Assembly (NCBI GenBank): GCA_037783545.1
Contig: JBBELK010000032.1
Location: 1,054,001 to 1,118,000, forward strand
From: Henricia sp. BOLD:AAB3569
Lineage: Eukaryota; Echinodermata; Asteroidea; Spinulosida; Echinasteridae
Length of the DNA stretch: 64,000 bases
Direction: 5' to 3'
The notes below the pieces were generated by a model that was not told the DNA's origin, made no database searches, and saw only the letters and a list, made by a program, of their open reading frames with translations. The position numbers and the translations under genes are program-made. Position 1 is the stretch's first letter. Each line of letters begins with the position of its first letter. Of the stretch, positions 16,440 to 64,000 are shown in pieces.

Positions 16440-16645
16440 GTCTCTGGTCGAATTGCTACAACGGTCGAATTGACTTCTCTTGTCAAGCGCACAACGGTCG
16501 AGTTGGTAGAACGGTCGAGTTGGTAGAACGGTCGAGTTGGTAGAACGGTCGAGTTGGTAGAACGGGCGAGTTGGTAGAACGGTCGAGTTGGTAGAACAGT
16601 CAAGTTGGTAGAACGGGCGAGTTGGTACAACGGTCGAGTTGTCCT
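16440..16645. repeat. Minisatellite GGTCGAGTTGGTAGAAC
   Basis: A 17-nt unit repeated about nine times, with good copies at 16495-16640. Complement of the 12.1 kb unit. Confidence 0.9.
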
Positions 16646-24300: not shown

Positions 24301-27300
24301 GTACATGTACGCCTGTATGCGGTTTTTCCCTATATTGTTGAAGGTATGCGGGTATGCCATTCGTATTGCGCTATTGTACGCGTCCCTGTTTTACTTCCAG
24401 TTCATCAGACAAGGACGAGGCCAGCGTCACGCCCCTTCTCAGTGCCGGCTTCAATCGACGCATTATTGAGAATCCAAATACAACGGCCTGCTTGAACGAA
24501 CTGCATCAACTGGAACACACAGATGTTAGCGTACAACTTAAACTTAGGTAAAATCAATACAGAAGAATTGTACCCAAGAAACGAGACATTATGCTGAACA
24601 CATGTAACTGGTACACTGTTTTTACACAATGAACAAGAAATTTGACCCGCTAAAAATTGAATACAAACCTCACAAAGAATGACTTATTGGCGCTGCCATT
24701 TTGTCCGGAAACTGGGAATTATGTTGCTGCGAAGATGTCATTTCAGTCAAGTCCAAGTCTGCAGCCGATTTCATGAAGCCTTATGCACTGCGTAAGCCCG
24801 CTTGCGCAAAGTTTAACTTGCATAAGCTGCGCAACATTCCTGTGATAATTACACTCAAGCCTATTGTGGGGTGTTATGGCCGAGCGGTCTAGTGCGTCGA
24901 ACTTAAGTTCCTGTGCTAGTACTAGAATGTAGGTTCGATTCCTGGCCGTGACGGGTTGTGGCACCTGTGCCCTTGAGCAAGGCACTTAACCACACTTGCT
25001 CCCATTCCTGTAATTGGCGGTCCTTCCGCTGTTGGATGTGGTATATAAATTTTTTCGTGAAATTGGCTGCAGGTCCCAAGTCATTTCAATCAAGTCCAAG
25101 TCGAGTCCCAAGTCATTTCAATCAAGTCCAAGTCGAGTCCCAAGTCATTTCAATCAAGTCCAAGTGGAGTCCCAAGTCATTTCAATCAAGTCCAAGTCGA
25201 GTCCCAAGTCATTTCAATCAAGTCCAAGTGGAGTCCCAAGTCATTTCAATCAAGTCCAAGTCGAGTCCCAAGTCATTTCAATCGAGTCCAAGTCGAGTCC
25301 CAAGTCATTTCAATCGAGTCCAAGTCGAGTCCCAAGTCATTTCAATCGAGTCCAAGTCGAGTCCCAAGTCATTTCAATCAAGTCGAGTCCCAAGTCATTT
25401 CAATCAAGTCGAGTCCCAAGTCATTTCAATCAAGTCGAGTCCCAAGTCATTTCAATCAAGTCGAGTCCCAAGTCATTTAAGATCAAGTTCCAAGTCATTC
25501 AAAAATCAAGTCTTAATCAAATTCAGTCAAGTCTCAGGTCCCAAAATATTGTCAGTCAAGTTCAACTCGAGTCTCAAGTCAGGGACTTGAGTCACCAACC
25601 ATTGAGTGTAAATTGACCAAAACTAAATTTTAACAAAATTTTTTTAAACAATTTTTTTTCGTGAAATTGGCTGCAGGTCCCAAGTCATTTCAATCAAGTC
25701 CAAGTGGAGTCCCAAGTCATTTCAATCAAGTCCAAGTGGAGTCCCAAGTCATTTCAATCTAGTCCAAGTGGAGTCCCAAGTCATTTCAATCGAGTCCAAG
25801 TCGAGTCCCAAGTCATTTCAATCGAGTCCAAGTCGAGTCCCAAGTCATTTCAATCGAGTCCAAGTCGAGTCCCAAGTCATTTCAATCGAGTCCAAGTCGA
25901 GTCCCAAGTCATTTCAATCAAGTCGAGTCCCAAGTCATTTCAATCAAGTCGAGTCCCAAGTCATTTCAATCAAGTCGAGTCCCAAGTCATTTAAGATCAA
26001 GTTCCAAGTCATTCAAAAATCAAGTCTTAATCAAATTCAGTCAAGTCTCAGGTCCCAAAATATTGTCAGTCAAGTTCAACTCGAGTCTCAAGTCAGGGAC
26101 TTGAGTCACCAACCATTGAGTGTAAATTGACCAAAACTAAATTTTAACAAAATTTTTTTAAACAAAATTTTTTCGTGAAATTGGCTGCAGGTCCCAAGTC
26201 ATTTCAATCAAGTCCAAGTGGAGTCCCAAGTCATTTCAATCAAGTCCAAGTCGAGTCCCAAGTCATTTCAATCAAGTCCAAGTGGAGTCCCAAGTCATTT
26301 CAATCTAGTCCAAGTGGAGTCCCAAGTCATTTCAATCGAGTCCAAGTCGAGTCCCAAGTCATTTCAATCGAGTCCAAGTCGAGTCCCAAGTCATTTCAAT
26401 CGAGTCCAAGTCGAGTCCCAAGTCATTTCAATCGAGTCCAAGTCGAGTCCCAAGTCATTTCAATCAAGTCGAGTCCCAAGTCATTTCAATCAAGTCGAGT
26501 CCCAAGTCATTTCAATCAAGTCGAGTCCCAAGTCATTTAAGATCAAGTTCCAAGTCATTCAAAAATCAAGTCTTAATCAAATTCAGTCAAGTCTCAGGTC
26601 CCAAAATATTGTCAGTCAAGTTCAACTCGAGTCTCAAGTCAGGGACTTGAGTCACCAACCATTGAGTGTAAATTGACCAAAACTAAATTTTAACAAAATT
26701 TTTTTAAACAACATTTTTTCGTGAAATTGGCTGCAGGTCCCAAGTCATTTCAATCAAGTCCAAGTGGAGTCCCAAGTCATTTCAATCAAGTCCAAGTCGA
26801 GTCCCAAGTCATTTCAATCAAGTCCAAGTGGAGTCCCAAGTCATTTCAATCGAGTCGAGTCCCAAGTCATTTCAATCAAGTCGAGTCCCAAGTCATTTCA
26901 ATCAAGTCGAGTCCCAAGTCATTTAAGATCAAGTTCCAAGTCATTCAAAAATCAAGTCTTAATCAAATTCAGTCAAGTCTCAGGTCCCAAAATATTGTCA
27001 GTCAAGTTCAACTCGAGTCTCAAGTCAGGGACTTGAGTCACCAACCATTGAGTGTAAATTGACCAAAACTAAATTTTTTATTATTTTTCAGAGCTGCCAA
27101 TGCATTATTCGCAGCCCTTGAGTCGGGCACCGAGCCCGTTGTGATCGCTAGCGAGAATCGAGTTGTCCAATATGCCAATTCAGCCATCGAACATCAGATG
27201 GGATATACCAGCAAGAGCGTTATCGGCCAAGAAATGGAGGATATGCTTCGTTGTGCCAAGAACAAGGAATTATTGGAATCTGTCTATTCTCAGCTCAAAA

Positions 27301-30300
27301 AGCCCAAGGTATAAACCATTGTGGGGTGTTATGGCCGAGCGGTCTAGTGCGTCGAACTCAAGTTCCTGTACATGGCAGTACTAGAATGTGGGTTCGATTC
27401 CGGGCCGTGACGGGTTGTGCCACTTGTGCTCTTGAGCAAGATACTTAATCACACTTGTTCCGTCCTTCGGAAGGGATGTAAAACCGTTGGTCTAGTGTGT
27501 TAGGTTTCAGTAACGCACTCTAAAGATCCCAGAGCATTCTTTCGTGAAGAGCAAGGGGAGGGATTCCCTGGTGTCTCTGGCAGTTTATAATTCAACTTAG
27601 AAGTTGTTAGTTATTCGAATATCTAATTGATCCCATTCCTGTAATTGGCGGTTCTTCCGCTGTTTGATGTGGTTAATAAATAAGTAAATAAATCAAAGAT
27701 AAATAAATTCCAAGAACTCCTTCCCTGTACACGTCTGCCATAGCTGGGATGCAGCTTTTTACAGTGCATGGACTGTGTGTGTTGTGGTTAAATCGAACAG
27801 CGCGCATCTACAGGTATGACGCATACAACTAGCACTTCGCACACACAAGTTTAGGGTGAGTTCACACTGAGCCTATTTGCACATAATCGCGATTTGCGTT
27901 GCTTTGAGAAAAAGCGGTGTGGTAGGAATTTTGAGTAAAACGATGCACTGAAAATCACTGAATTATAAAAACATTTTCCGTCCAAGCTAATTCTGTGGAA
28001 GGAATTTGGGGTGAAACAATGCACTGAAAACCACAGAATTAGCTTGGACGGAAAGTGTTTTTTCCCCCAAAGCGACGCTCTTTGCAATTATGCATGAAAA
28101 GGCTCGGTGTGAATCCTCCCTTACAATAAACATGCAATTTTTCGAAGTGACGACAGTTTAATGACTCAACATCATCATATAACACATGTAGTTGGGCACT
28201 AGCCAGGTACCAGCTATTTGCAGAGATACAGCGAAGGAGTCAGTTACTGGAATGGTCTATAGACTGCTTTACGGTGACGTCATGCCTTCTGCCATTTTGG
28301 GTGTCATTTGATGATTGTGGCCCGAGTGCTAAGCAGCAAAATGAGTGAGAAAAGTGTATTGGTTGCATTTAGCTCCATTGCTTTACCTAGTTATTGTGCC
28401 ATGGCCGTTGTGTTGAATAGGATAAAATGTCCTTCAGGCTAGTGTACATCAAGTGAAAAACACTTTCACTTTTACAAACTCAGTAAAATTGTGCTCATTA
28501 AAAGGCACAGGCTTGTCAGCAATGCGTGCACGCCAAATTCGTGCCACAAAATATGCAGCTCCATAGCAAATGCATGGAGCTGCGTATTTCGTGGCATGAA
28601 TTCGGTGCGCGAGCATTGCTGACGAGCGTGTGACTTTAAAAACACGTTCATGGACTTGAGAGGGGAATCGAGACTTGGTCTCAAACATTTTGGGCTTAAA
28701 TCAAGACTTGCTGTCCAAGACTTGGGACTTGAAATGAGACTTGATCTCTAAGACTTGAGACTTGAATTGAGACTTGCTCTCCAAGACTAAGCACTTGAAA
28801 CAAGACTTGCTCTCCAAGATGCGAGACTTAAATTGAAACTTGGCACAGGAACCTGCCGACAACCGTGTTATTGGTTTTTTTTACAGCCTTGGGATGGAGT
28901 GCTGTATTTCAAGAAGAAAAATGGAGAAACTGTACCTCAATATGTAAATATTAAACCAGTAACCGGACAGGGAAGGTAAGAGTACTTCTGAATAAAAATT
29001 TAACAAAAACAACCTGATTTACCTGTAAAACATTAGTAGGTATTGAAGTCGTTTACTGGCTCATATGGCCGGTACTCATCCCCGGTTTCTACTTATCCTG
29101 GATGGAAAGCCAGTCCATCGCAGGTCTACCCCTACCAATGCATAGTTCCGAGTTTGCCCAGTTAACTCCGGCCCCTTTGATATTGTTGCTATGCCTCACA
29201 CGCTATCGTCAAAATGGCGACACACTACGCACAAAGCAATGGGACTTTCAACGGAAAACACAGATTCATTGGAGAAAACTCCAAGGTATTCATGTTTCAG
29301 GGTCAACAGTTATCTGAGTAAAGGGCCAGTAATACAGGGATGCCATAACATCATGAAATACATGCTTTCTTACCTTTGAACAGCAAATCGTCTGGCCTTG
29401 AAACAAAAAATTCACCCGGATCACCGCATACAACACTGTACAAACTGTATGTTGTTGTGTTGTTGTGAGGCAATGCACTTTGACCTATGTGGGCGATGTC
29501 TGCTAGCTCTGTTGTGATTGGTCGGCTTGATTGACAGGTCGGACCTATGCATTGGTTGAGTTTCCTGTATTTACTGGTACCCATTTATACACCTGGGTGG
29601 AGAGAAACGATGTGGAGTGAAGTGTCTTGTCCAAGGGCACAAAACGGTGCAATGACCAGGCTTCGAACCATGGACGTATCGACCAAAAGTCCGACGCGCT
29701 ATCCACTAGACCACAACGTTAGTACTGCAAGTAATTCCATACAAACTAAAACAGAGCCTCCATAGTGCTCGACAAAACACGTTCTTGTCGGTCACAAATG
29801 AACATCCACAGATCGAAACTATTGACTCCTAACATTCTGCTTATTTTTTTGTCTCAAAAATTGTCCCACATTGTATAATTATCATCATATTAACGACACA
29901 ACAATGAATAACTCTATTCCTTTAAAGGCCTTATGTATCATATGCAAGATCAAACTTTTTACAGATTCCTGGAATAAGAGTGTAACATATCTAAAGAAGA
30001 ATGTTGGTAAACTAGCCTGAGGTAATTTTAGCTACTTAGATGCATCAATGCAAATTTTGAAAATCTATATATGGATTTTGTGTACAAGTGAATGGTAAAA
30101 AAAGTCCCGTGCACAGGACTTTTTGCTATCAACACTTTGAGTATAGTTTTTTTTGGTCAACTCATGAAAAACAAAATTGGGTCATTGCAAATGATACAAT
30201 GGGCCTTTAAAGATAGTATACGTGATTGGTAAACTGTTACAAATAGTTTTATCCCCCTGTGTGATTGAAGATATGCATGATTAAAACCAACCTAAGCAAA

Positions 30301-33300
30301 AACCAGCTCCGTACTTGGTCTAACTTTTGAGAAAACAGTCAAAAAAGGGTTTGCAGTCATTTCGCCCCAAAACCACTTCGCCCTCAACCATTTCGCCCTG
30401 AACCACAGCCTGTGCACGAAGTGGTTTTGGGGCGAAGTGGAATTTGGCGATGTAGTGTTTGGACGAAGTAATTTGGGGCGAAATGGCACTCGGGCGAAGT
30501 GGTTTGGGGCGATATGGCACTTGGGCGAAATGGTTTTGGGGCGAAATGAATTTTCGTCTCATGAGACGAAAACTAATTGTTTTACTCATTTCTCAAAGAC
30601 TATAGCACTTCAGACAAAACCATTTGAGGGGAAGTTTTCTACAGTCATCATGTTTATATTGTGTAAGTTAGGCGTAAATCTGTGAACATTTCTGATTTTC
30701 GAGATTACCAATGATGTATACTGCCTTTAAGTGAAAGTTTCCCCATTTCTCTTACAGCAAAGTGAGGCATCATGTTTTCAACATTAAGGCACCTGTGGGA
30801 GTATCCAGCCAGAATGTGCCAGTATTCAGCCAGGAATTACAACATGTTGACAAGATAAACTCAGACTATTCAAATGGTAGGATATTTTTCATTTAAAGCC
30901 AAATAAATAAAAATGTTATTTCATGTACAAGTTGTTACCCTGGGGTTTCCCAAGCTAGTGTTAACATTAAATTTCATTTGTAAATACCTTGGACAGTTTA
31001 CGCATCCTTATTGGTTGAGAGCACGTCACGTGGCCAGTCTTAAATGGATGATAAAGACCTGGCCAGCATTTGTGCTCGGCCCTAGTCAGCGCGTTTGGAA
31101 CACGCACACGCACATGAGTCTTTCCACAGTAGTGGGGGCATTTTGGCAACACAGACCATATTTTCCAAAAAATAACTTTGTCTGGTCTGAAAATAAATGA
31201 AATAAATTTCAGTTGTTCTGAAGAGATAAATTGGGCCCAAAAAGGGTTACAAACAGTGTGACAACATGCCTTTCCAAAAACCCTGTGTACAAATTTCTAA
31301 TATACGCTCTTAACCGGGACGGCCTAAAATGTCCATCCCGGTTTTGTGTTCGAATATACGTGTAACGTGCGATGGGCGCGGTCCACTTGACAGTGCCCCT
31401 TACGCGTTCAGGAATACGGCGTTTTATCCAAATTATTTTTTAGGACAATTCGCCCTGTGCACTTAAAATATACAGTACATCATTTGTACTTGCCCTAAAA
31501 TTTGTCTTCATGACAGAGTTGACAAGAAAAATCTGACTAAACGTCAATGGTAACAAATGCCACATGATTTTTTTTCCTGTACCTTTTTGTAGGAGAGAGA
31601 AAAAAAAACACACTTTTGAAAATTATTTTTTTACCATTTATTAAACACAAAAACTATGCAGGATTTTTTTTTTTTTTTAGGTTTTCTGAAGTATTACTGC
31701 AGTATGTCTGTTTTTTTATATTTTAAAAATTTATTTCACTGTTTCACTGTTTCCGTTAAAGGTACATCAGTGCGTCGTCATTCCATAGCCAGAATACACT
31801 CAATGACCATAGAGGCACCCATTACAAAGGTAATATTTAGTTGTGTATAATTACATACATGTATCTTCGGAGAAGAGCCGTTATTTTTATAAATACTACG
31901 TGTCAAAAAAAAACTGTCCTATTTTTAATCTTGAATAACCTTGTCATTTTCCAATGGATTGGAATCAAAATTTCACATCATGTAAACAAGACCTGACAAA
32001 TTTGACTGAGTGAGTTTCATCAGTTTTGTAAAAGAGGGTGAGATTTAATGGCCATACGAAAACAAGTCATTCAGTGCAGTTCGTGTACATATTTATTTTA
32101 CCGTGCTAAACGTATTACAACTTTGTTCTCTAATATGTGCGATAAATCGATCCCCGAAATCAGACAAAAGGCCGACATAGAGTTAAGAGGAGGTAGCTGC
32201 TATATGTTGAACATTTGGGCTGACAATTCTATCCAAAACCAGCTCGATGGAACAACAAGAGATAGCAATATTTGGAGAAGGAGATAACTCGCCGCAATGC
32301 AATGTGGGGATTTTCAAATTTGACCTGTGTTGACGGCCGGCCGTGTGTGTAGTGTGAAACGATCGCACGATACACGGGTAGAAAAAAATATTGCGTTTAG
32401 TAGTGTGAAAACGTAGCTGATTGGACCCGTGTTGATTTTTTTTTAAAAGTCTACACGGGTTGGAACCGTGTAGATTTCGACACGGGTCAAACGTTCATAG
32501 TGTGAAAAGGCCTAAAGTAACCTTTTTTTATTTCTTTTTATTTAGGTCATAAATATCATTAACGCAGCCCAGGAAAACAGCCCAGTGACGGTCGTCCAAG
32601 CATTGGATAGAGTCCTTGAAATCTTGCGTTCATCCGAGCTGTATAACCCCCAGCTGTGCTCACAACAAGTGAAGGAGGAAGACCAGATGACCACGGATCT
32701 CGTTGGTGGACTTATGACTGTAAGTTACATGCAGTCGGATTGTGAAAACACAGAATTACAATAAGATCTGTCCAGATCACTTCTTTGACCTTCCCATGGG
32801 TGGTGAGATTTTGTTACCATATCATGTCATATGAGAGCACGTGTGGTCTAGTGGGTACGCAGCCATGCTCCTGATAGAGGGGTTATGGGTTCTAGCCCCA
32901 CTTGTGCTAACGTGTTTGTATCTGTGGGCAAGACACTTAATCTCAATTGCCTCGTCAACCCAAACGATATTTGTGGAGCTGTTGGGAATGCACGATACCT
33001 TGTTTTTTTGTTTCCCCCAGCACGGTGGCTATAATACCAAGAGAAGAATGTCTGGACCTGAAGGCCTCTGGTCAAAAGTCTCAAGTAAGTGGTGGGATGT
33101 CAATGTTGTATAGGGCTTGGGAATCGACGTCACGACGCCATTATTGACGTCATTCTTGGCCGCCATACATCAAGGTAGTGAGTGGTTGCTGTGCGAACTG
33201 GTGTGCAGCCTCGTCAAGTTTGGATATGCGTGCGGCACCCACGCGATTCCATATCACGCAAACAACGACCTACTTAATTGAATTCCACATGTCGTGGCGC

Positions 33301-36300
33301 GCGCGCCCTGCACGCGTGAGAACAAGACAAGCTGAACGTACTTCGCGCACGTTACTGGCAACAAACATGGCGGAAACCACTGCATTGTGACGTTGCATGA
33401 CATCACATTCCCAAGCCCTATAACAGATATTTATAATTCAGTGCATTTAGTATAAAATGTTTGCAGCGATCAGGGGCGGATCCAGGGGAGGCGTGGGGGG
33501 CGCACGCACACTTTTTCTGCTTAAAGTGGTTAAATATTGCCTCAGATTGCACCACAGCATCTAGAATCCATCTAGAAGCCGTCAGGGCTTCGCGCTACGC
33601 GCTCGCTATTTCATTGTCATTCGCATTTCATGCTTAAAAATTTCACGCCCCCCCCTTTTCAAAATCCTGGATCCGCCCCTGGCGATCAGGAAATGTTTCC
33701 AGCAGCTGGGAATGTTTTCACTTGCCATTTGCAACAGTGTTTTTGACAGACCTAGAGACCACTCTGCTAAGCGTGTTACAATCCCCTGATAAAATCCCAG
33801 CAAAGCTTTAAAGCTGTTGCGCTTAGCGAACGCATACACGAGTCATTTGGATGTAATTTAATCCAATTGGTCATGTGTTTTGCTAACAAAAATAATTTCT
33901 ATAGTTTCTATCCGAAATTGGATTAAGTTTTTTGTTCTTTATGACTATACCTTCCTACCTAAATTTCTGTCGCCTCTTCCACAACGAAATAGGGCAAATT
34001 TCAACAGGGTCTTTAACATGCGAGTAGAAGAGTGAGTTTAAATAGCCCCTGTTGCAAGAGTGGTGGTCCTGATTTTCTACTGGTCTTACATTTCTAGACC
34101 ACTGGTGAGTTTTTGACGTCCTCTTCTTTTCAGGCTCGCCTCACCAGTCTCCCAGCAATCTGCCCTCCCAACTTAGCCAGGCTCCTGCTGAAGTCCAGAA
34201 GGTTCTGGAAGACGATGCGGCATGGGATTTCAATGTAATGGAGCTGGAGAGGCTTACTACACACAGGTACAGTAAACTCAGTACTTGGTGTTGTTCAGAG
34301 AATAGTAAGCCACATAGGAACTCATTTAGCAACTTTAAAAATGTCCGCTATGCGGCCGACTCGGGAGCCATAAAAATATCTAATCCATCAAATTAAAAAA
34401 AAAAACCCTAAGGTAGCGCTGTAAATACTTTTTTATGTACATTTTTTTCTCCCAGACCACTCGTCTATCTTGGGTTAAAGATATTCAGTCGTTTTGAAGT
34501 CGGACGTTTTCTAATCCATCAAATTAAAAAAAAAAACCTAAGGTGGCGCTATAAATACTTTTTTATGTACATTTTTATTCCCAGACCACTCGTCTATCTT
34601 GGGTTAAAGATATTCAGTCGTTTTGAAGTCGGACGTTTTCTGGGAATCTCGGAGACGGTACTCCGTAACTGGCTTCAGGTTGTTGAAGCCAATTACCACG
34701 GTTCCAATCCGTATCACAACTCAACACACGCATCTGACGTATTGCAGGCTACTGCCTACTTCATACGCAGAGATAAACTCAAGGTAAATATTGGTTGTTG
34801 ACTGGGACTTGAGAGTTCTTCTTGGTTCAAAAATTTAGCAGGGTCGAATCATGTATATTTTCACTGCTTAAGGGTTCTCTCAATGAATTGTATGCCTTGC
34901 CTTGCACATGATTGGATAATGTTTATTATATTAAGTGTTAAAGATAGTATACATGATACTATATTTGTTTTTAAAAGCATCAATTCCTTGGCCCCGCAGT
35001 ATATGGCAAGCCTATTTACACCTTACGTACAAACTCGTGAAACTTGTCAATCTGCCGAAAAGACACTGAAAATTCCCTTTGCACGAAAGGTGTCTTTCGC
35101 CTCGAGTTTTGCTGTAACTGGCGCCGCAATTTGGGCACACCCTGGGTAAATAAATGGAATAAATAAATAAATAAATAATTTGGTAAACTGTTACAAATAG
35201 TTTTATCCCCCTGTGTGATTGAAGATATGCATGATTAAAACCAACCTGAGCAAAAACCAGCTCCGTACTTCGTCTAACTTTTGAGAAAACAGTAAAAAAA
35301 GGGTTTGCAGTAATTTCGCTCCAAAACCATTTCGCCTTGAACCATTTCGCCCTCAACCACGGCCTGTGCACGAAGTGGTTTTGGGGCGATGTAGTGTTTG
35401 GACGAAGTGATTTGGGGCGAAATGGCACTCGGGCGAAGTGGTTTGGGGGTGAAATGGCACTTGGGCGAAATGGTTTTGGGGCGAATTGAATTTTCGTCTC
35501 ATGAGACGAAAACTATTTCTTTTGCTCATTTCTCAAAGACTATAGCATTTCAGGGGAAGTTTTCTACGGTCATCATGTTTATATTGTGTAAGTTAGGCGT
35601 AAATCTGTGAACATTTCTGATTTTCGAGATACCAATCATGTATACTGCATTTAATGCTATTTTTGTCATAAAATTATTTTTCTAAATTTGTGATCAGGAA
35701 GCAACCAAACTTGGGATGAGAGAAAAATCGTAATTTCAGCTACATAGATGCATCAAGAAGCAAAATTTAAAGGAGCGTGTTCAGATTTTTCAAAAAAAAG
35801 GATTTATTTTTGAGATACTTCCCCAAAATACTATCCATGTGAAGAAAACAGGAAATTTGCAATCTCCAATTTGTATGTGGAAGCAAAAAGGTTGGTGTAC
35901 ATGTAGTTACTGCACTGCTTTATGGAACCAGATAAATTAGTTTACAAAACATCGGCGGTTTTTTGACGATGTCCTTGAAAATATACGGATTGAGAATGCG
36001 AAATTTCAGAATGGTAATGAGAAAAATATGACTATTGATATGGTATCAAAATCTCTATACGCATAGGAAAATGGGTGGGTCAAAAAAAAATCAAAAAATC
36101 AAAATTTTAAAAACCTAATATTTGATCCTTGGATTTCACAAAATTGTGCAAACACCAAAGCACCCAAATAAACAATGCGTTGACACATGGCGAGTCCACT
36201 CACAAATAATGATAGCGCTGCTGCATCTTGCACTTTGGCTAACTAGCTAAAAAATAAATGTCTTTTTGCTTGGATTCATTCAATTTCCGTAAACTGCCTT

Positions 36301-39300: not shown

Positions 39301-42300
39301 TGTATCCCGATGTTGATTCTGCCAAATGTTCAAGTTGGTCCCAGAGGCCATTTTTTAAGGTTGTGGGCCCATATCACGTAATGGGAAATGCCGAGAAGCG
39401 TCAGGTTTTGCCAGAGTCGGTCACAAATAGTGCACGTCTGTGTGCCCGATGGACTGTGAGTGACCACAAGAGGGTCCTATACTACATAGACATGTACACA
39501 CGAACGTACAGTTGAAGTCGGAAGCTTACATACATGTACATCACTACCATCATCACCCAAAATGGTAAACAGGACTACCCGAACCACTTCAAGGTGTGCA
39601 AGCTATGTTTTAAGTACTGCAAGCATGTGAGGAATTCCACAAAATTTTTGTAAAGACTGTTACAAAAATTGTGACAACGCAAGTTTAAGCACACCAGTTT
39701 TAACACAGTTGTATGTAAATTTCTGACTACAACTGTACATGTCACTCGTGAGAAGGGGTCTGCCTGGGTCACAAGTCATGAATATGCATTACCATTAATA
39801 TATTTGATTGGTCGCCGGTAAGCCAATCAGAATCAACCCCGTTTTAAGAAAAAGGCTGGTATCTCCAATTCCCAATGTTCGAAATTTTTGTTTTGTTGTA
39901 TTTTTCGTTACAGAGACACGTAAGCTTTCTAAATTCATTCGCTTGTGTAAATTATTTTTTTAAACCTTTCACTAAAACACAGACAGTCAATTTTTAAAGA
40001 AACCTTGTTTCAGATTTTGAGTTTCTGTTCAAAGGGCGCAGAAATCGTTCACTATTTTTTTTAACAGCAGAGTACTGGCAGAAGTACCCCTGACTCGTCA
40101 AGTTTAGCAAGTCCTGAAAACCGAGCATTGATTCGCCGGATGTTGATCAAGTGTGCTGATGTTTCCAATCCGACCAGACCTTTGGAGATGTGCATGGAAT
40201 GGGCCCGCAGAATATCGGAAGAGTATTTCGCACAAGTAAGTGTATTAGTTGTAGTCGCAGAGCGTGTTTCTGGTGAGCACGATAACGGAAATGTTTCCTT
40301 TGAGTAAAAAAAGCTTTGATTAAAAAACCGTGTCTCTATCACATTTGTGACCAGTCATGATGAAATGAGCGGAATTTGCAAAAATTTGAAATTTGGTATT
40401 TTTGAATTTAGCAGAAAAAGAGCCTTCCAATGGTATATAATACATAAGGTAAATCTATTCCCCCAATGCAACACAGCTTAGAGAAGTGGTATTGTTCAAA
40501 CAAATTTTACAAATCTTACAAAATTTCTTACGAGCCACAAATAAAGCTATCGTCAAAATTGGTCTGAAAATGATGTTTTTAATTGTTGGATGATGCTAAA
40601 AATTTTGAATCAAATAGAATAGGAGCTACTCTTTCCAAATATTAAAAAACCCTAAAATTGACCTCCCCTTCAATTTTTGACTTTAAACCGTCCTCATAGG
40701 AAAAAGCAAAGTGCAACTTTACGCTCATTTTGTCGTGACAGGTCACATTTTTTTAACCCCCCATTTTTTCGTGACAGGTCACATTTTTTAACCCCCCATT
40801 TTTTTCCAGATTTCAGATTTTTGTTACCATGTCATATTTTTCTCATTACCATTCTGAAATTTCGTGTTCTCCATCTATATTTTCAAGGATATCGTCAAAA
40901 AACCACTGATGTTTTGTAAACTAATTTGTCCATTCCATTAAAGCAGTGCACTGATTACACCAACCTTTCTGCTTCCATATCCAAAATGGAGATTGCAAAT
41001 TTTCCGTTTTCTTCCCATGGATAGTATTTTTAGGAGGTATTTTATATGATTGTTAGATTAAAACGAAACCCATTTTCTAGACAAGACTTGCCAGTTGTGT
41101 ATCAAATCTCCCAGCTGGACCTTGCACAAACAGGCGACAGAATTAGCAATGTAACTTTACAAACGTCTAAATGTAAAAATGTCTTTTGTAAAAATACTTG
41201 TCGAATAAAATAAAAAATCTTCCAAAATTTAGACGGATGAAGAGAAGAAGAGAGGACTGCCGGTGGTGATGCCAGTGTTTGACCGCTTGACGTGCAGTAT
41301 TCCCAAGTCTCAGATTTCATTCACTGAATATTTCATCATGGACATGTTTGATGCTTGGGATGGTAAGATTGCAACAAATTGTGTCCTTTTTACATATAGA
41401 CCGTATCGACTAGCTGCCATCTTGTAGGGCAGTTTCTTTGTTCCGCAAGGACATGTGTGGATAGGCATTTTGTGCTTGCATTAATTGTTGACCAATTTAA
41501 AACAATTTAAAACAACAAATGTTGCCATACAAGATAGCAGCTTTTCAATACGGTGTATAGACAGCTTTCCTGTGACATCATTCTTTCTGCCATTTTGTGT
41601 CATTTTGACGATCTTGACCCACATGGCCCAAGTACTAACCAGCAAAACGAGTGTGCGCATTACACGCGTATTGTACGCACAGGCACACAGCCCGGAAAAC
41701 TTAATTTTGTTGTCACAATGTGTCAAATTTGGTTCTGGGTGTGTGCGTGTTCGCGTTCTCCACTACCGGTTTTGTCCGGGCGCGACGACCAGACAAAATC
41801 ATCAGAAGTACCATTAGCCCCCGAAAAAAAAAAAACTTGGCCGCCCGGACAAAGATAATTAATTTCCCCCTCTAAAATACTCTCCATGGCAGTTGCATGC
41901 ATTCGGCTTGAAAACCCCCCTTATGCGGCGAACACTGATTCGGACAAGATTTTTAGCAGTGGGGAACACTACATGTGTGTTTCAAATGTGCTGAAACTGA
42001 CTACCGGTAGGGCACAGTGGGCCAGACCAGAAGGTGTTTAAAACCGGTCTGTTTATGACTGGCCATGTGACGTGCTCTCGGCCAATAGTGATGCGTAAAC
42101 TGAGGTATTTATGAATGCTTAATATGGTGGCAAGTTTTAAATCCTTTCTTAGTATGCAGGAGGTTGTGTGTTCGAGTCCCACCCGAGCACGCTATGACGT
42201 TTTTCTCATACATGTAGTATCTCTAGGAGCACTAAGTACATGTATACAGTGCTAATCCAGTTACATAGGGTAAGGGCAAAACAAACCCTAATGAATATTT

Positions 42301-42690
42301 ATTCTCCCTAACGCAAGCCAAATCGCATTCTCTCCTCAGTTGCGGTACCCACTGCTAAATGATTCAAACCGGCTGCTCAACACCAGCTAGCTCAGTTGTT
42401 AAGTGGTTAAGACATCTGCCCAGCATGCAGGAGGTCGTGGGTTCGATTCTCACCCGAGCACGCTATGAATATTTTCTCCTACTATCTCAAGGAAGCACTA
42501 AGCATACCGTGCTAATCAAGTTACGTAGGGTAGGGCAAATCAAACCCTAATTAAAATCCTTTCTTTTTTTTAACATTTTGCAGCATTTATCGACTGTCCT
42601 GAGGTAATGGAAAATCTGAAGAATAATTATAAATATTGGAGTACTAAAGAACAGAATGAATGCAGTGAGCAGGACCAGGAGTGTCGATAA
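18108..42690 (+). CDS. PDE8: PDE8-type high-affinity cAMP phosphodiesterase, complete, 19 coding exons
   Basis: Exons: 18108-18362, 18849-18905, 22299-22489, 23332-23391, 24401-24547, 27092-27308, 28887-28975, 30758-30876, 31762-31829, 32546-32719, 33021-33084, 34134-34266, 34585-34783, 36460-36590, 37293-37379, 38818-38959, 40068-40235, 41233-41362, 42584-42690. All phases agree and give 845 residues, close to human PDE8A (829) and PDE8B (885). The enzyme hydrolyses cAMP to AMP. Domains: MGCAPSI N-terminus (acylation-type), receiver-like region about 105-230, PAS about 240-345, PDE8 signature [14 protein letters not shown] about 388-401, catalytic domain about 480-825. Metal-site residues visible are H573, H609, D610 and D742, within [10 protein letters not shown] and [10 protein letters not shown]. 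The purine-selective glutamine is Q794 and the clamp is F797. RRHS (383-386) is a possible PKA site. Intron 2 is GC-AG; exon 17 has an NAGNAG acceptor; exon 13 is preceded by a partial copy of itself. The family assignment is firm; invertebrates usually have one PDE8, so A or B is not assigned. Confidence 0.95.
18849..18905 (+). CDS. PDE8: PDE8 coding exon 2 (57 nt microexon)
   Basis: Codes 19 residues including SFGPMKI, matching the QFGPMRF stretch before the receiver-like domain of human PDE8A. Acceptor ttttcag. The donor is CAG|gcaagt, a GC donor with an otherwise perfect consensus. Phase 0 on both sides, so skipping would keep the frame. Confidence 0.88.
19031..19595. mobile_element. MITE with GGGGGCCGTCCATAAAG ends and G-runs, PDE8 intron 2
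   Basis: Left GGGGGCCGTCCATAAAGTAC, right complement TACTTTATGCACGGCCCCC. Near both ends are long G tracts (19108-19196 and 19501-19561). Apparent poly-Pro/poly-Gly frames come from these tracts. Confidence 0.75.
20330..20440. repeat. Three tandem 40-nt units, PDE8 intron 2
   Basis: CCAATAGGCCTACACGTACT followed by GTACGTGTAAGACAG occurs three times with minor changes, then TACATGTA palindromes. Confidence 0.85.
21940..22215. repeat. AGGGCGACA repeat, PDE8 intron 2
   Basis: GATAGGGCGACAATTTGTGT to GCGGCATCCAGAGTTCTT matches 50108-50413 over most of its length. GGGCGACA and TGTCGCCC motifs occur in both orientations. Confidence 0.75.
22299..22489 (+). CDS. PDE8: PDE8 coding exon 3 (receiver-like domain)
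   Basis: Codes VLLVFSKED, then a stretch ending [10 protein letters not shown] and GLCR, very close to human PDE8A (VLLVFTKED, DIIIIDHRNP). This is the response-regulator-like fold. Acceptor cctggcag, donor CAG|gtaaac, phase 2 at the end. Confidence 0.95.
23332..23391 (+). CDS. PDE8: PDE8 coding exon 4 (receiver-like domain)
   Basis: Codes [20 protein letters not shown], the counterpart of RSIRSSKLSENTVIVGVVRR in human PDE8A. Acceptor tgttttcag, donor AAG|gtttgt. Phase 2 on both sides. Confidence 0.93.
24401..24547 (+). CDS. PDE8: PDE8 coding exon 5 (end of receiver-like domain)
   Basis: Codes a stretch containing [15 protein letters not shown] and QLKLR, matching ISAGFTRRYVENPN and QLKLR of PDE8A. 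Acceptor acttccag, donor TAG|gtaaaa. Phase 2 on both sides. Confidence 0.95.
24761..25071. mobile_element. MITE with GCAGCC ends, split by a SINE
   Basis: Left end GCAGCCGATTTCATGAAG and right end TTTCGTGAAATTGGCTGC are inverted repeats. Internal GCGTAAGCCCGCTTGCGCAA is shared with the copies at 38011 and 62938. The SINE at 24865-25048 sits inside. AAGTC-type satellite sequence lies on both sides, so the MITE landed in an older satellite. Confidence 0.75.
24865..25048 (+). mobile_element. tRNA-derived SINE, short subfamily
   Basis: Starts TGTGGGGTGTTATGGCCGAG with box A, then box B GGTTCGATTCC, then the conserved tail CTTGAGCAAGGCACTTAACC and TAATTGGCGG. Compared with the copy at 27320 it lacks about 170 nt of the body, as does the copy at 62520. 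It is inserted inside a MITE (24761-25071). Confidence 0.85.
25056..27074. repeat. Higher-order minisatellite in PDE8 intron 5
   Basis: Basic units are 32 nt (GTCCCAAGTCATTTCAATCA plus AGTCCAAGTCGA) and a shorter 26-nt form lacking six bases. They are arranged in four larger blocks that each begin with the MITE right end CGTGAAATTGGCTGCAG (at 25056, 25660, 26174, 26720) and end with ACCATTGAGTGTAAATTGAC. Blocks are about 604, 514, 546 and 355 nt. Serine-rich open frames here (SPKSFQSS repeats) are by-products of unit lengths and not genes. Confidence 0.95.
27092..27308 (+). CDS. PDE8: PDE8 coding exon 6 (PAS domain)
   Basis: Codes the first part of the PAS domain, including [18 protein letters not shown] and VIGQEM, the counterparts of RFIQYANPAFETTMGYQS and LIGKEL. 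The acceptor tatttttcag lies just past the end of the intron 5 satellite, and a SINE begins about 11 nt after the donor AAG|gtataa. Ends in phase 0. Confidence 0.95.
27320..27700 (+). mobile_element. tRNA-derived SINE, full-length subfamily
   Basis: Same head and box B as the 24865 copy, but with the extra body containing AAAGATCCCAGAGCATTC, and an AAATAA-rich 3' end. It starts 11 nt after the PDE8 exon 6 donor. Confidence 0.85.
27852..28121. mobile_element. MITE with AGGGTGAGTTCACAC ends, PDE8 intron 6
   Basis: Left AGGGTGAGTTCACACTGAG, right GTGTGAATCCTCCCT. Two inner inverted GTCCAAGCTAATTCTGTGG segments. Related to 43050-43281 and a fragment at 57040-57175. Confidence 0.75.
28501..28637. 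mobile_element. Palindromic MITE, AAAGGCACAGGCTCG family
   Basis: 137-nt fold-back: AAAGGCACAGGCTTGTCAGC at left, complement at right, centre CCATAGCAAATGCATGG. In PDE8 intron 6. Confidence 0.85.
28655..28850. repeat. Degenerate AAGTC satellite, opposite orientation, PDE8 intron 6
   Basis: Repeated GACTTGCTCTCCAAGACT and GAGACTTGAATT motifs are diverged reverse complements of the intron 5 satellite unit. Confidence 0.65.
28887..28975 (+). CDS. PDE8: PDE8 coding exon 7 (PAS domain)
   Basis: Codes [20 protein letters not shown], corresponding to EWQGIYYAKKKNGDNIQQNV of PDE8A, then [11 protein letters not shown]-type sequence. Acceptor tttttacag, donor AAG|gtaaga, ends in phase 2. Confidence 0.95.
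29050..29733 (-). mobile_element. SINE family B, interrupted, PDE8 intron 7
   Basis: Left part (29070-29160) and right part (29570-29733) match the 57187 copy. About 410 nt between them has no counterpart there and looks like a later insertion. Confidence 0.6.
30209..30728. mobile_element. 500-bp MITE with internal TTCGCCC satellite, PDE8 intron 7
   Basis: Same family in reverse orientation relative to 7340. It ends about 30 nt before the PDE8 exon 8 acceptor. Confidence 0.85.
30758..30876 (+). CDS. PDE8: PDE8 coding exon 8 (PAS end and linker)
   Basis: Codes [13 protein letters not shown] (PAS end; PDE8A has GKIRHYVSI) and a poorly conserved linker. Acceptor tctcttacag, donor ATG|gtagga, ends in phase 1. 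Confidence 0.9.
31762..31829 (+). CDS. PDE8: PDE8 coding exon 9 (PDE8 signature)
   Basis: Codes [20 protein letters not shown], nearly identical to PDE8A. RRHS is a candidate PKA target. Acceptor ccgttaaag is pyrimidine-poor near the AG; donor AAG|gtaata; ends in phase 0. Confidence 0.95.
32546..32719 (+). CDS. PDE8: PDE8 coding exon 10 (linker helix region)
   Basis: Codes [20 protein letters not shown], then [17 protein letters not shown] and DLVGGLM, all recognisable in PDE8A. Acceptor tttatttag, donor ACT|gtaagt. Phase 0 on both sides. Confidence 0.95.
32838..32998 (+). mobile_element. Degraded tRNA-derived SINE before PDE8 exon 11
   Basis: tRNA-like head GTGTGGTCTAGTGGGTACGC and box B-like GGGTTCTAGCCCC, then GGGCAAGACACTTAATCTC, which is the conserved SINE tail motif. 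Confidence 0.6.
33021..33084 (+). CDS. PDE8: PDE8 coding exon 11 (variable linker)
   Basis: This exon is needed to reconcile the phase of exon 10 (0) with exon 12 (1), and 64 nt does so exactly. It codes [15 protein letters not shown] and following residues, comparable to DGLRRLSGNE of PDE8A. Acceptor tttcccccag, donor CAA|gtaagt. A degraded SINE lies directly upstream and a MITE starts about 30 nt downstream. Confidence 0.8.
33113..33422. mobile_element. MITE with TATAGGGCTTGGGAATC ends, PDE8 intron 11
   Basis: Left end TATAGGGCTTGGGAATCGACGTCA-like, right end complement (CATTCCCAAGCCCTATA). About 310 nt, no coding capacity. It starts 29 nt after the exon 11 donor. Confidence 0.75.
33471..33681. 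mobile_element. MITE with CAGGGGCGGATCCAG ends, PDE8 intron 11
   Basis: Left end CAGGGGCGGATCCAGG, right end CCTGGATCCGCCCCTG. GCGAT is present on both sides (33466-33470 and 33682-33686). The ends resemble hAT-like elements, though those usually duplicate 8 bp. Confidence 0.75.
34134..34266 (+). CDS. PDE8: PDE8 coding exon 12 (start of catalytic domain)
   Basis: Codes a Ser/Pro/Gln-rich linker, then [15 protein letters not shown], corresponding to WDFDIFELEAATHNR. Acceptor cttcttttcag, donor CAG|gtacag, ends in phase 2. Confidence 0.93.
34380..34639 (+). repeat. 129-131 bp tandem duplication spanning the exon 13 acceptor
   Basis: Copy 1 is 34380-34510 and copy 2 is 34511-34639. Each contains an A-run, about 75 nt of intron, the acceptor, and the first 55 nt of PDE8 exon 13. 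The copies differ by only a few bases. The acceptors are 129 nt apart (34455 and 34584). The stretch between them has no stop in the PDE8 frame. Confidence 0.95.
34585..34783 (+). CDS. PDE8: PDE8 coding exon 13 (catalytic domain, first metal motif)
   Basis: Codes residues 525-591: [13 protein letters not shown], then [19 protein letters not shown] with H569 and metal ligand H573. Acceptor atttttattcccag, donor AAG|gtaaat. A near-identical copy of this acceptor and the exon's first 55 nt lies 129 nt upstream. Confidence 0.95.
34940..35652. mobile_element. Same MITE family, interrupted by a LINE fragment, PDE8 intron 13
   Basis: Left end AAAGATAGTATACATGAT breaks at the LINE piece (34955-35181), then continues TTGGTAAACTGTTACAAATAG, as in the uninterrupted 30209 copy. 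Confidence 0.85.
34955..35181 (+). pseudogene. 5'-truncated LINE 3' end (CR1/L2-like) inside a MITE
   Basis: A 60-codon open piece reads [18 protein letters not shown], then the terminal GAAIWAHPG, typical of the last residues of L2/CR1 reverse transcriptases (lap.Yl..l... then g..lWn). It is followed by an AAATAAATGG and TAAA-repeat tail. It splits a 500-bp MITE whose two halves continue on either side. Confidence 0.75.
36460..36590 (+). CDS. PDE8: PDE8 coding exon 14 (HD motif)
   Basis: Codes residues 592-635 including [20 protein letters not shown], with metal ligands H609 and D610. Acceptor tttccgcag, donor CAT|gtaagt, ends in phase 2. Confidence 0.96.
36698..37101. mobile_element. MITE with GGGTCATTCCACGAGG ends, PDE8 intron 14
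   Basis: Left GGGTCATTCCACGAGGTTGG, right complement (CCAACCTCACGGAATGACC). About 404 nt. Confidence 0.75.
37293..37379 (+). CDS. PDE8: PDE8 coding exon 15 (catalytic domain)
   Basis: Codes [20 protein letters not shown] then CNIFKEL, matching [20 protein letters not shown] and CNIFKNM. Acceptor gatttcag; the donor CAG|gttggt is weak. Phase 2 on both sides. Confidence 0.96.
38011..38170. mobile_element. MITE with GCAGCC ends, PDE8 intron 15
   Basis: Starts GCAGCCGATTTCACGAATCC and ends near TTTTTCGTGAAATCTTTTGC; about 160 nt, with a GCGTAAGC-rich palindromic body. The right end is slightly eroded. Confidence 0.75.
38438..38750 (+). mobile_element. tRNA-derived SINE in PDE8 intron 15
   Basis: Box A ATGGCTGAACGG, box B GGTTTGAATCC, tail CCTTGGGCAAGGCACTCTGC and a 3' end GCGCTATATAAGATGCCGTT. 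Same superfamily as the 27320 element with a different tail. Confidence 0.75.
38818..38959 (+). CDS. PDE8: PDE8 coding exon 16 (catalytic domain)
   Basis: Codes [20 protein letters not shown] then [17 protein letters not shown], matching the PDE8A helix bundle. Acceptor tgtacag, donor TTG|gtaaga, ends in phase 0. Confidence 0.96.
39509..39735. mobile_element. Tc1-type MITE with Sleeping-Beauty-like ends, PDE8 intron 16
   Basis: Starts CAGTTGAAGTCGGAAGCTTA and ends TTTCTGACTACAACTG; TA is present on both sides (39507-39508, 39736-39737). Length 227 nt, no transposase. The terminal sequence closely resembles the ends of fish Tc1/mariner elements of the Sleeping Beauty group. Confidence 0.85.
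40068..40235 (+). CDS. PDE8: PDE8 coding exon 17 (catalytic domain, fourth metal ligand)
   Basis: Codes a Ser/Thr-rich insert, then [20 protein letters not shown] with metal ligand D742 and the helix ending [10 protein letters not shown]. The acceptor is an NAGNAG (aacagcag), so the exon may start at 40068 or 40071, with or without one Gln. Donor CAA|gtaagt, phase 0. Confidence 0.95.
41233..41362 (+). CDS. PDE8: PDE8 coding exon 18 (substrate pocket)
   Basis: Codes [20 protein letters not shown] followed by QISF: the glutamine-switch residue Q794 and clamp F797. It ends [10 protein letters not shown]. Acceptor aaatttag, donor ATG|gtaaga, ends in phase 1. Confidence 0.96.
42131..42300 (+). 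mobile_element. SINE copy 1 in PDE8 intron 18
   Basis: Box B part GTTCGAGTCCCACCCGAGCA followed by CGCTATGACG and a tail ending GGGCAAAACAAACCCTAATG. Its tRNA 5' half is eroded. Closely related to the next copy. Confidence 0.65.
42381..42552 (+). mobile_element. SINE copy 2 in PDE8 intron 18, close to exon 19
   Basis: tRNA-like head CAGCTAGCTCAGTTG with an intact box B GGTTCGATTCT, then the same CGCTATGAATA and GGGCAAATCAAACCCTAATT tail as copy 1. It ends about 30 nt before the exon 19 acceptor. Confidence 0.7.
42584..42690 (+). CDS. PDE8: PDE8 coding exon 19 (C-terminus and stop)
   Basis: Codes [19 protein letters not shown], like the C-terminal helix of PDE8A, then a 16-residue acidic/polar tail ending ECR and TAA. 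Two bases after the stop is AAG|gtaaaa, a plausible donor for a 3'UTR intron. Two tRNA-derived SINE copies sit just upstream in intron 18. Confidence 0.94.
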
Positions 42691-53874: not shown

Positions 53875-63383
<9,509 letters not shown>

Positions 63384-64000
63384 GTAGGTTCACATACTAG
63401 TACTGCAGAGCTGCCAACCCTCCCGGATTTTGCAACAGATTCTTCAGAAAATGACTAATTTCATGAGTCCTGGCATGGATAAAAATCTTCCTGGATTGTG
63501 TCAATTAACAACCTTGGGGATTGTTAGATGTGTTTGGAGTCACAGGATGAACCTGTTTTCACAGATGTATTCCCCCAAATCCGGGAGTGTTGGCAGCTCT
63601 GGTACTGGCTTGCTTGGAGAACTACCAAAACTTGTGTATGGGTTTACGGTAGCACCATGTGAATCTCTTTTGTATATGTGTGGTTCTGAAAAGAACCGGT
63701 GAGTGTGAACTCAACATTTTCGAACAGCGCGCTCTGTTCGTCTTCAGGAGTAATGCCGGACTTGTGATGATGCAGGGCTAATAAGTACTGGTTAAGGGGA
63801 ATTAAGTGTACAATGTGTGCACTGAAGCGGAAGGGCTTGGGTTGATGAGGCGTGGTTGTGCTAGATCCTAATACTGTGGTTAGCACTGGTGTGTGTCACT
63901 GTGGCAGTGGCTGTTGTGGGGGTGGGAGGGGGTGGTGCGACCTAGGGTATAGGTGACCCATCGGTCTGGTTGGATAATAGGGAGTGCCAGATATTGCCGA

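Follow-up and report, generated by a model that had tools for sequence, protein, structure and literature searches.

A tandem duplication across an intron-exon boundary may allow a longer form of PDE8 in a Henricia sea star

The stretch of DNA analyzed here, hereafter the window, is 64,000 nucleotides long and comes from the sea star Henricia sp. BOLD:AAB3569 (assembly GCA_037783545.1, contig JBBELK010000032.1, positions 1,054,001 to 1,118,000). A PDE8 gene lies on its + strand, and seven of its exons were placed between 34134 and 41362. The peptide obtained by splicing these exons matches the catalytic domain of human PDE8A (PDB 8yta and 3ecm) over 319 query residues, with an E value of 1.5e-146. 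PDE8A is the best match across the catalytic domain, Pfam recognizes PDEase_I in the spliced peptide, and a PAS domain is found upstream, in the translation of 27087-27311. To judge from its position and strand, the PAS exon is probably part of one transcript with the catalytic exons. At 25073-27077 lies a satellite-like array whose 32-nt units are organized in a higher-order repeat. Its last part contains 1.9 copies of a 386-nt unit at 98%, and the array stops 14 nt short of the final base of the acceptor AG of this PAS exon (27091). Related 16- or 32-nt tandem repeats, of the GGGGCGAAATGGC and CGCCCCAAAACCACTT types, were detected by TRF at 30358-30548, 35313-35485, and 60257-60391, and two of these three sites sit between mapped PDE8 exons.

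Two of the mapped exons are of direct concern here. The one that precedes the duplication (34134..34266, + strand; exon 12 in a preliminary description of this DNA) ends in CACAG, uses the donor CAG/GTACAG (the slash marks the splice junction), and its translation aligns to the human PDE8A catalytic domain. The following one, as it is conserved in PDE8 (34585..34783, + strand; exon 13 in the same description), was delimited by its PDE8A match and by inspection of its splice sites; it measures 199 nt and ends at the donor AAG/GTAAAT. The intron between them is 189 nt or 318 nt long, depending on which of the two acceptors described below is considered, and the next intron reaches 1676 nt. Further along the gene, the acceptor at 41224-41232, before TDEEKKRG, is very weak (1.31 with a general matrix, pyrimidine fraction of 0.45), and the exon behind it nonetheless aligns well with PDE8A.

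The end of the intron and the start of the second exon are contained in a two-copy tandem repeat at 34379-34641. TRF gives it a period of 129, 2.0 copies, 96% matches, and a score of 491; the comparison of the window with itself by blastn aligns 34379-34512 with 34510-34641 at 96.3% identity over 134 columns. Given this length and this identity, a chance similarity of the copies is excluded. The upstream copy covers 131 nt (34379..34509, + strand), its match being prolonged to 34512 through a shared TCT, and the downstream copy, with a unit of 129 nt, covers 34510..34641 (+ strand), its match taking in the terminal TCT. Each copy contains the end of the intron (77 nt upstream, 75 nt downstream), then the acceptor, and then 54-57 nt of exon, a range given because the three bases TCT are common to both breakpoints. 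The two near-identical copies adjoin each other and both span the 3' splice site with part of the exon, so that the duplication proposed in the preliminary description is recovered by TRF and blastn. Its unit of 129-131 nt also stands, and resolves into 131 nt for one copy and 129 nt for the other, while its estimate of about 75 nt of intron and 55 nt of exon is adjusted to the figures above.

By global alignment, the two copies differ by three substitutions and two single-base indels; a further 3-nt gap reflects the point at which the upstream copy was cut and is not counted as a difference. All these differences are intronic, and none is found within the 57 exonic bases. The probability that the five of them fall in the intronic part by chance is 0.054 if this part is counted as 74 of 131 columns and 0.059 if it is counted as 77 of 134; for the substitutions alone, it rises to 0.18-0.19. 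Such values are insufficient to establish that the upstream copy is constrained in its exonic bases. The breakpoint is blurred over three bases, as the TCT with which the upstream copy opens also closes the downstream copy; this overlap is compatible with a microhomology-mediated duplication but does not prove it. A transposable-element origin was rejected: within the window, besides the two copies, the unit and the intron find only blastn matches of 12-19 nt.

Behind the single donor of the preceding exon, the duplication places two plausible acceptors, TTTTTTTCTCCCAG at 34442..34455 and TTTTTATTCCCAG at 34572..34584 (both on the + strand, by inspection and matrix scores), whose AGs end at 34455 and 34584. 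They are separated by 129 nt, i.e., 43 codons without any stop, and use of the upstream one would add 34456..34584 (+ strand) to the mRNA. The spliced seven-exon forms are open in both cases, with 0 stops each, and encode 329 residues with the downstream acceptor and 372 with the upstream one. The arrangement is that of a putative alternative 3' splice site, and the second in-frame acceptor of the preliminary description, with the 43 residues that its use would add, is borne out. The combined chance of a kept frame and of an absence of stops is around 0.06 (1/3 for the length and, for the stops, a first-order Markov model of the intron), which is too high to argue that selection kept the frame open. 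It is the two one-base indels between the copies that set the distance of 129 nt. With the upstream type of intronic half at both places, the spacing would be 131 nt and reading from the upstream acceptor would meet a stop. One could imagine that, after the duplication, selection tuned the downstream copy and converted a decay-targeted product into a translatable one, so that a long and regulated PDE8 would carry a 13-residue segment twice; we consider this very improbable.

The relative strength of the two acceptors was estimated with two matrices. A general matrix gives 14.18 for the upstream acceptor and 9.91 for the downstream one, and places the nine other acceptors of the gene between 1.31 and 13.38. 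On the contrary, with a matrix built from these nine other acceptors, the upstream acceptor scores 5.11 and the downstream one 10.32, the nine sites ranging from -3.03 to 10.28 by leave-one-out. Two of the exons used to build it, after 28886 and 32545, are presumably PDE8 exons, an assignment that we base on the resemblance of their translation. In this own-gene matrix, the upstream score is reached by 183 of the 3346 + strand AGs and the downstream score by 31, counts in which the two sites, and whichever of the nine training acceptors score as high, are themselves included. Whichever matrix is used, the scores of both acceptors lie inside the range of the nine others or exceed it, and on paper both are competent sites. 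Both copies also carry a branch-site candidate, TTTAT, located 19-20 nt before the end of the AG, and a CTAAT located 70-72 nt before it. The preliminary description had credited the upstream acceptor with the cleaner pyrimidine tract. A greater strength of this acceptor agrees with its longest pyrimidine run (11 against 7 downstream) and with the general matrix, but not with the own-gene matrix, and it is not robust, since the order flips with the scoring matrix.

Exon length and position also bear on the choice between the acceptors. Exon length favors the downstream one, which gives an exon of 199 nt against 328 nt, the other six mapped exons measuring 87-168 nt. Position would rather favor the upstream acceptor if intron definition applies, because the preceding intron is short and the next one is long. 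Indeed, a human survey finds that, of two competing 3' sites with a distance of 20 nt or more, the upstream one is preferred, and that sites flanked by a short intron upstream and a long one downstream behave as under intron definition, the latter comparison bearing on pairs of near-equal strength (PMC9225289). This human rule may not hold in this animal. The competing 3' sites of the human ALTssDB, described in the same source, resemble those of PDE8: a single donor faces two acceptors, each of which has a tract of its own, at a distance of more than 20 nt from each other (PMC9225289). They differ in that the PDE8 acceptors both descend from one by duplication, and hence the sequence behind each of them is identical for 57 nt.

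At the protein level, the 43 residues would be inserted after THR and would consist of 19 residues repeating the start of the exon, followed by 24 mostly intron-derived residues ending in IFIPR. The insertion point falls within the region aligned with the solved PDE8A chains, 42 residues before the start of the Pfam match and 43 residues ahead of the first histidine of HNSTH. With this distance, the location "next to the active-site helices" given in the preliminary description is a loose one. The aligned solved PDE8A chain (8yta, 3ecm) has no 43-residue insert before PLIYLGLK, and no Pfam family was found in the exon when read from the upstream acceptor alone.

The explanation that we favor, and to which we give an even chance of being right, is that of a young tandem duplication that has created two competing acceptors, with the upstream one partly used and the 43-residue form probably impaired. 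A microhomology-mediated repair event or a replication error, of which the TCT at the breakpoints would be the trace, probably produced the duplication, by copying the 3' end of a short intron together with the initial 54-57 nt of a catalytic exon of PDE8. Two complete acceptor modules (i.e., branch-site candidate, pyrimidine tract, and AG), placed 129 nt apart, would then compete for one donor. Because both acceptors give an open frame, the mRNA made with the upstream one should escape nonsense-mediated decay and deliver an enzyme carrying 43 more residues in the N-terminal part of its catalytic domain. Judging from the sequence, the duplication may thus allow a version of PDE8 that is 43 amino acids longer. 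A mixed use of the acceptors would be expected, the downstream one leading to the functional enzyme and the longer form being impaired or inactive. The exon of 328 nt, longer than all the other six mapped, counts against upstream use. Moreover, selection would act against a fixed duplication if much of the mRNA were thereby spent on a damaged enzyme; it is then more likely that the upstream acceptor is little used or that the allele is rare, and the duplication may be a polymorphism that segregates in the population. If it is real and recent, it constitutes a natural experiment in 3' splice-site competition within a conserved signaling enzyme, in which the acceptors have 57 identical bases behind each of them and differ only in tract and position. 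It would also show how a fresh acceptor is tolerated until it gives rise to an isoform or to a new intron, or disappears.

The same duplication could be real but silent, the downstream acceptor being the only one spliced (the upstream one at trace level at most) and the upstream copy being simply intron. The own-gene matrix and the exon of 199 nt, closer in length to the six others, both point in this direction. However, the pyrimidine run is longer at the upstream acceptor, whose score is close to the top with the general matrix and whose position is closer to the donor. Some change might also be expected in a free intron, yet the 57 upstream exonic bases are identical to the downstream ones, although this last argument does not reach significance. 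We regard a silent duplication as fairly unlikely. The repeat could also be absent from the animal and result from the assembly, by the joining of overlapping contig or haplotype ends that were left unmerged. The copies are about 2-4% apart (three substitutions, or five events, over 134 columns), a divergence also attained between the haplotypes of heterozygous individuals in many invertebrates, so the differences between the copies are no proof of a true duplication, and a 3-nt overlap at the breakpoint can arise by chance. Furthermore, outside the satellite at 25000-27100, this is the sole adjoining two-copy unit of more than 100 nt in the list of self-comparison matches, the other adjoining pairs, at 16493 and 20327, being arrays of short units. 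Against such an artefact, which we hold to be unlikely, the whole window contains 0 N, no join is visible within 33900-35100, and tandem repeats of many kinds are common in the window (50 TRF rows, some of which describe the same array).

Tandem duplication across an intron-exon boundary is a class of event that is already known, and no report of such a duplication in PDE8 was found among the matches listed by our search of the PDE8 literature. In the potato RdRp gene PGSC0003DMG402000361, a tandem duplication gave rise to a new intron, documented by 106 RNA-seq reads, the upstream exonic copy having supplied a cryptic GTAAG donor (PMC4974935). In PDE8 as in potato, the duplication crosses the boundary and copies the branch site, the pyrimidine tract, the 3' splice site, and the exon start; the potato copies differ at ten nucleotides, against five events between the PDE8 copies (PMC4974935). 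A similar outcome in PDE8, in which the upstream copy would become a small exon whose cryptic donor is spliced to the downstream acceptor, was omitted from the preliminary description, which listed an isoform, a splicing hazard, a polymorphism, and an artefact. Besides the matching geometry, the GT at 34474..34475 (+ strand; TGG/GTTAAA, exon end 34473) would define an in-frame microexon of 18 nt and a new intron of 111 nt ending at 34584, but this donor is weak (-0.77 in the general matrix). The best cryptic donor, AAG/GTGGCG (GT at 34543..34544, + strand; exon end 34542), scores 4.50 in the general matrix, like two of the ten assigned donors (4.06 and 4.28). However, among the eight GT sites of 34456-34584, seven score less than 0.4 in this same matrix, and the eighth, this best one, leaves an intron of only 42 nt before the downstream acceptor. 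A new intron is in our view very improbable, and an alternative acceptor is the likelier outcome because the cryptic donors of PDE8 are weak, at least by the general matrix. Recursive splicing at the upstream acceptor was rejected by inspection, as the joined end, CACAG/ACC, has no GT.

A Drosophila study describes intron gain through the tandem duplication of proto-splice sites (PMC2891723). Here too, a short tandem duplication alters the choice of splice sites, and alternative forms are permitted when its length can be divided by three; in Drosophila, what is duplicated is exonic and contains a proto-splice site, whereas the unit of PDE8 carries a ready-made acceptor (PMC2891723). A far larger duplication is described for another gene (PMC7605655).

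Elsewhere in the window, two matches to tRNA exceed the Rfam gathering score, at 42389-42461 and 56933-57014. A histone 3' UTR stem-loop, also above the gathering score, is present on the - strand at 63657-63702 and suggests that a histone gene lies near the end of the window.
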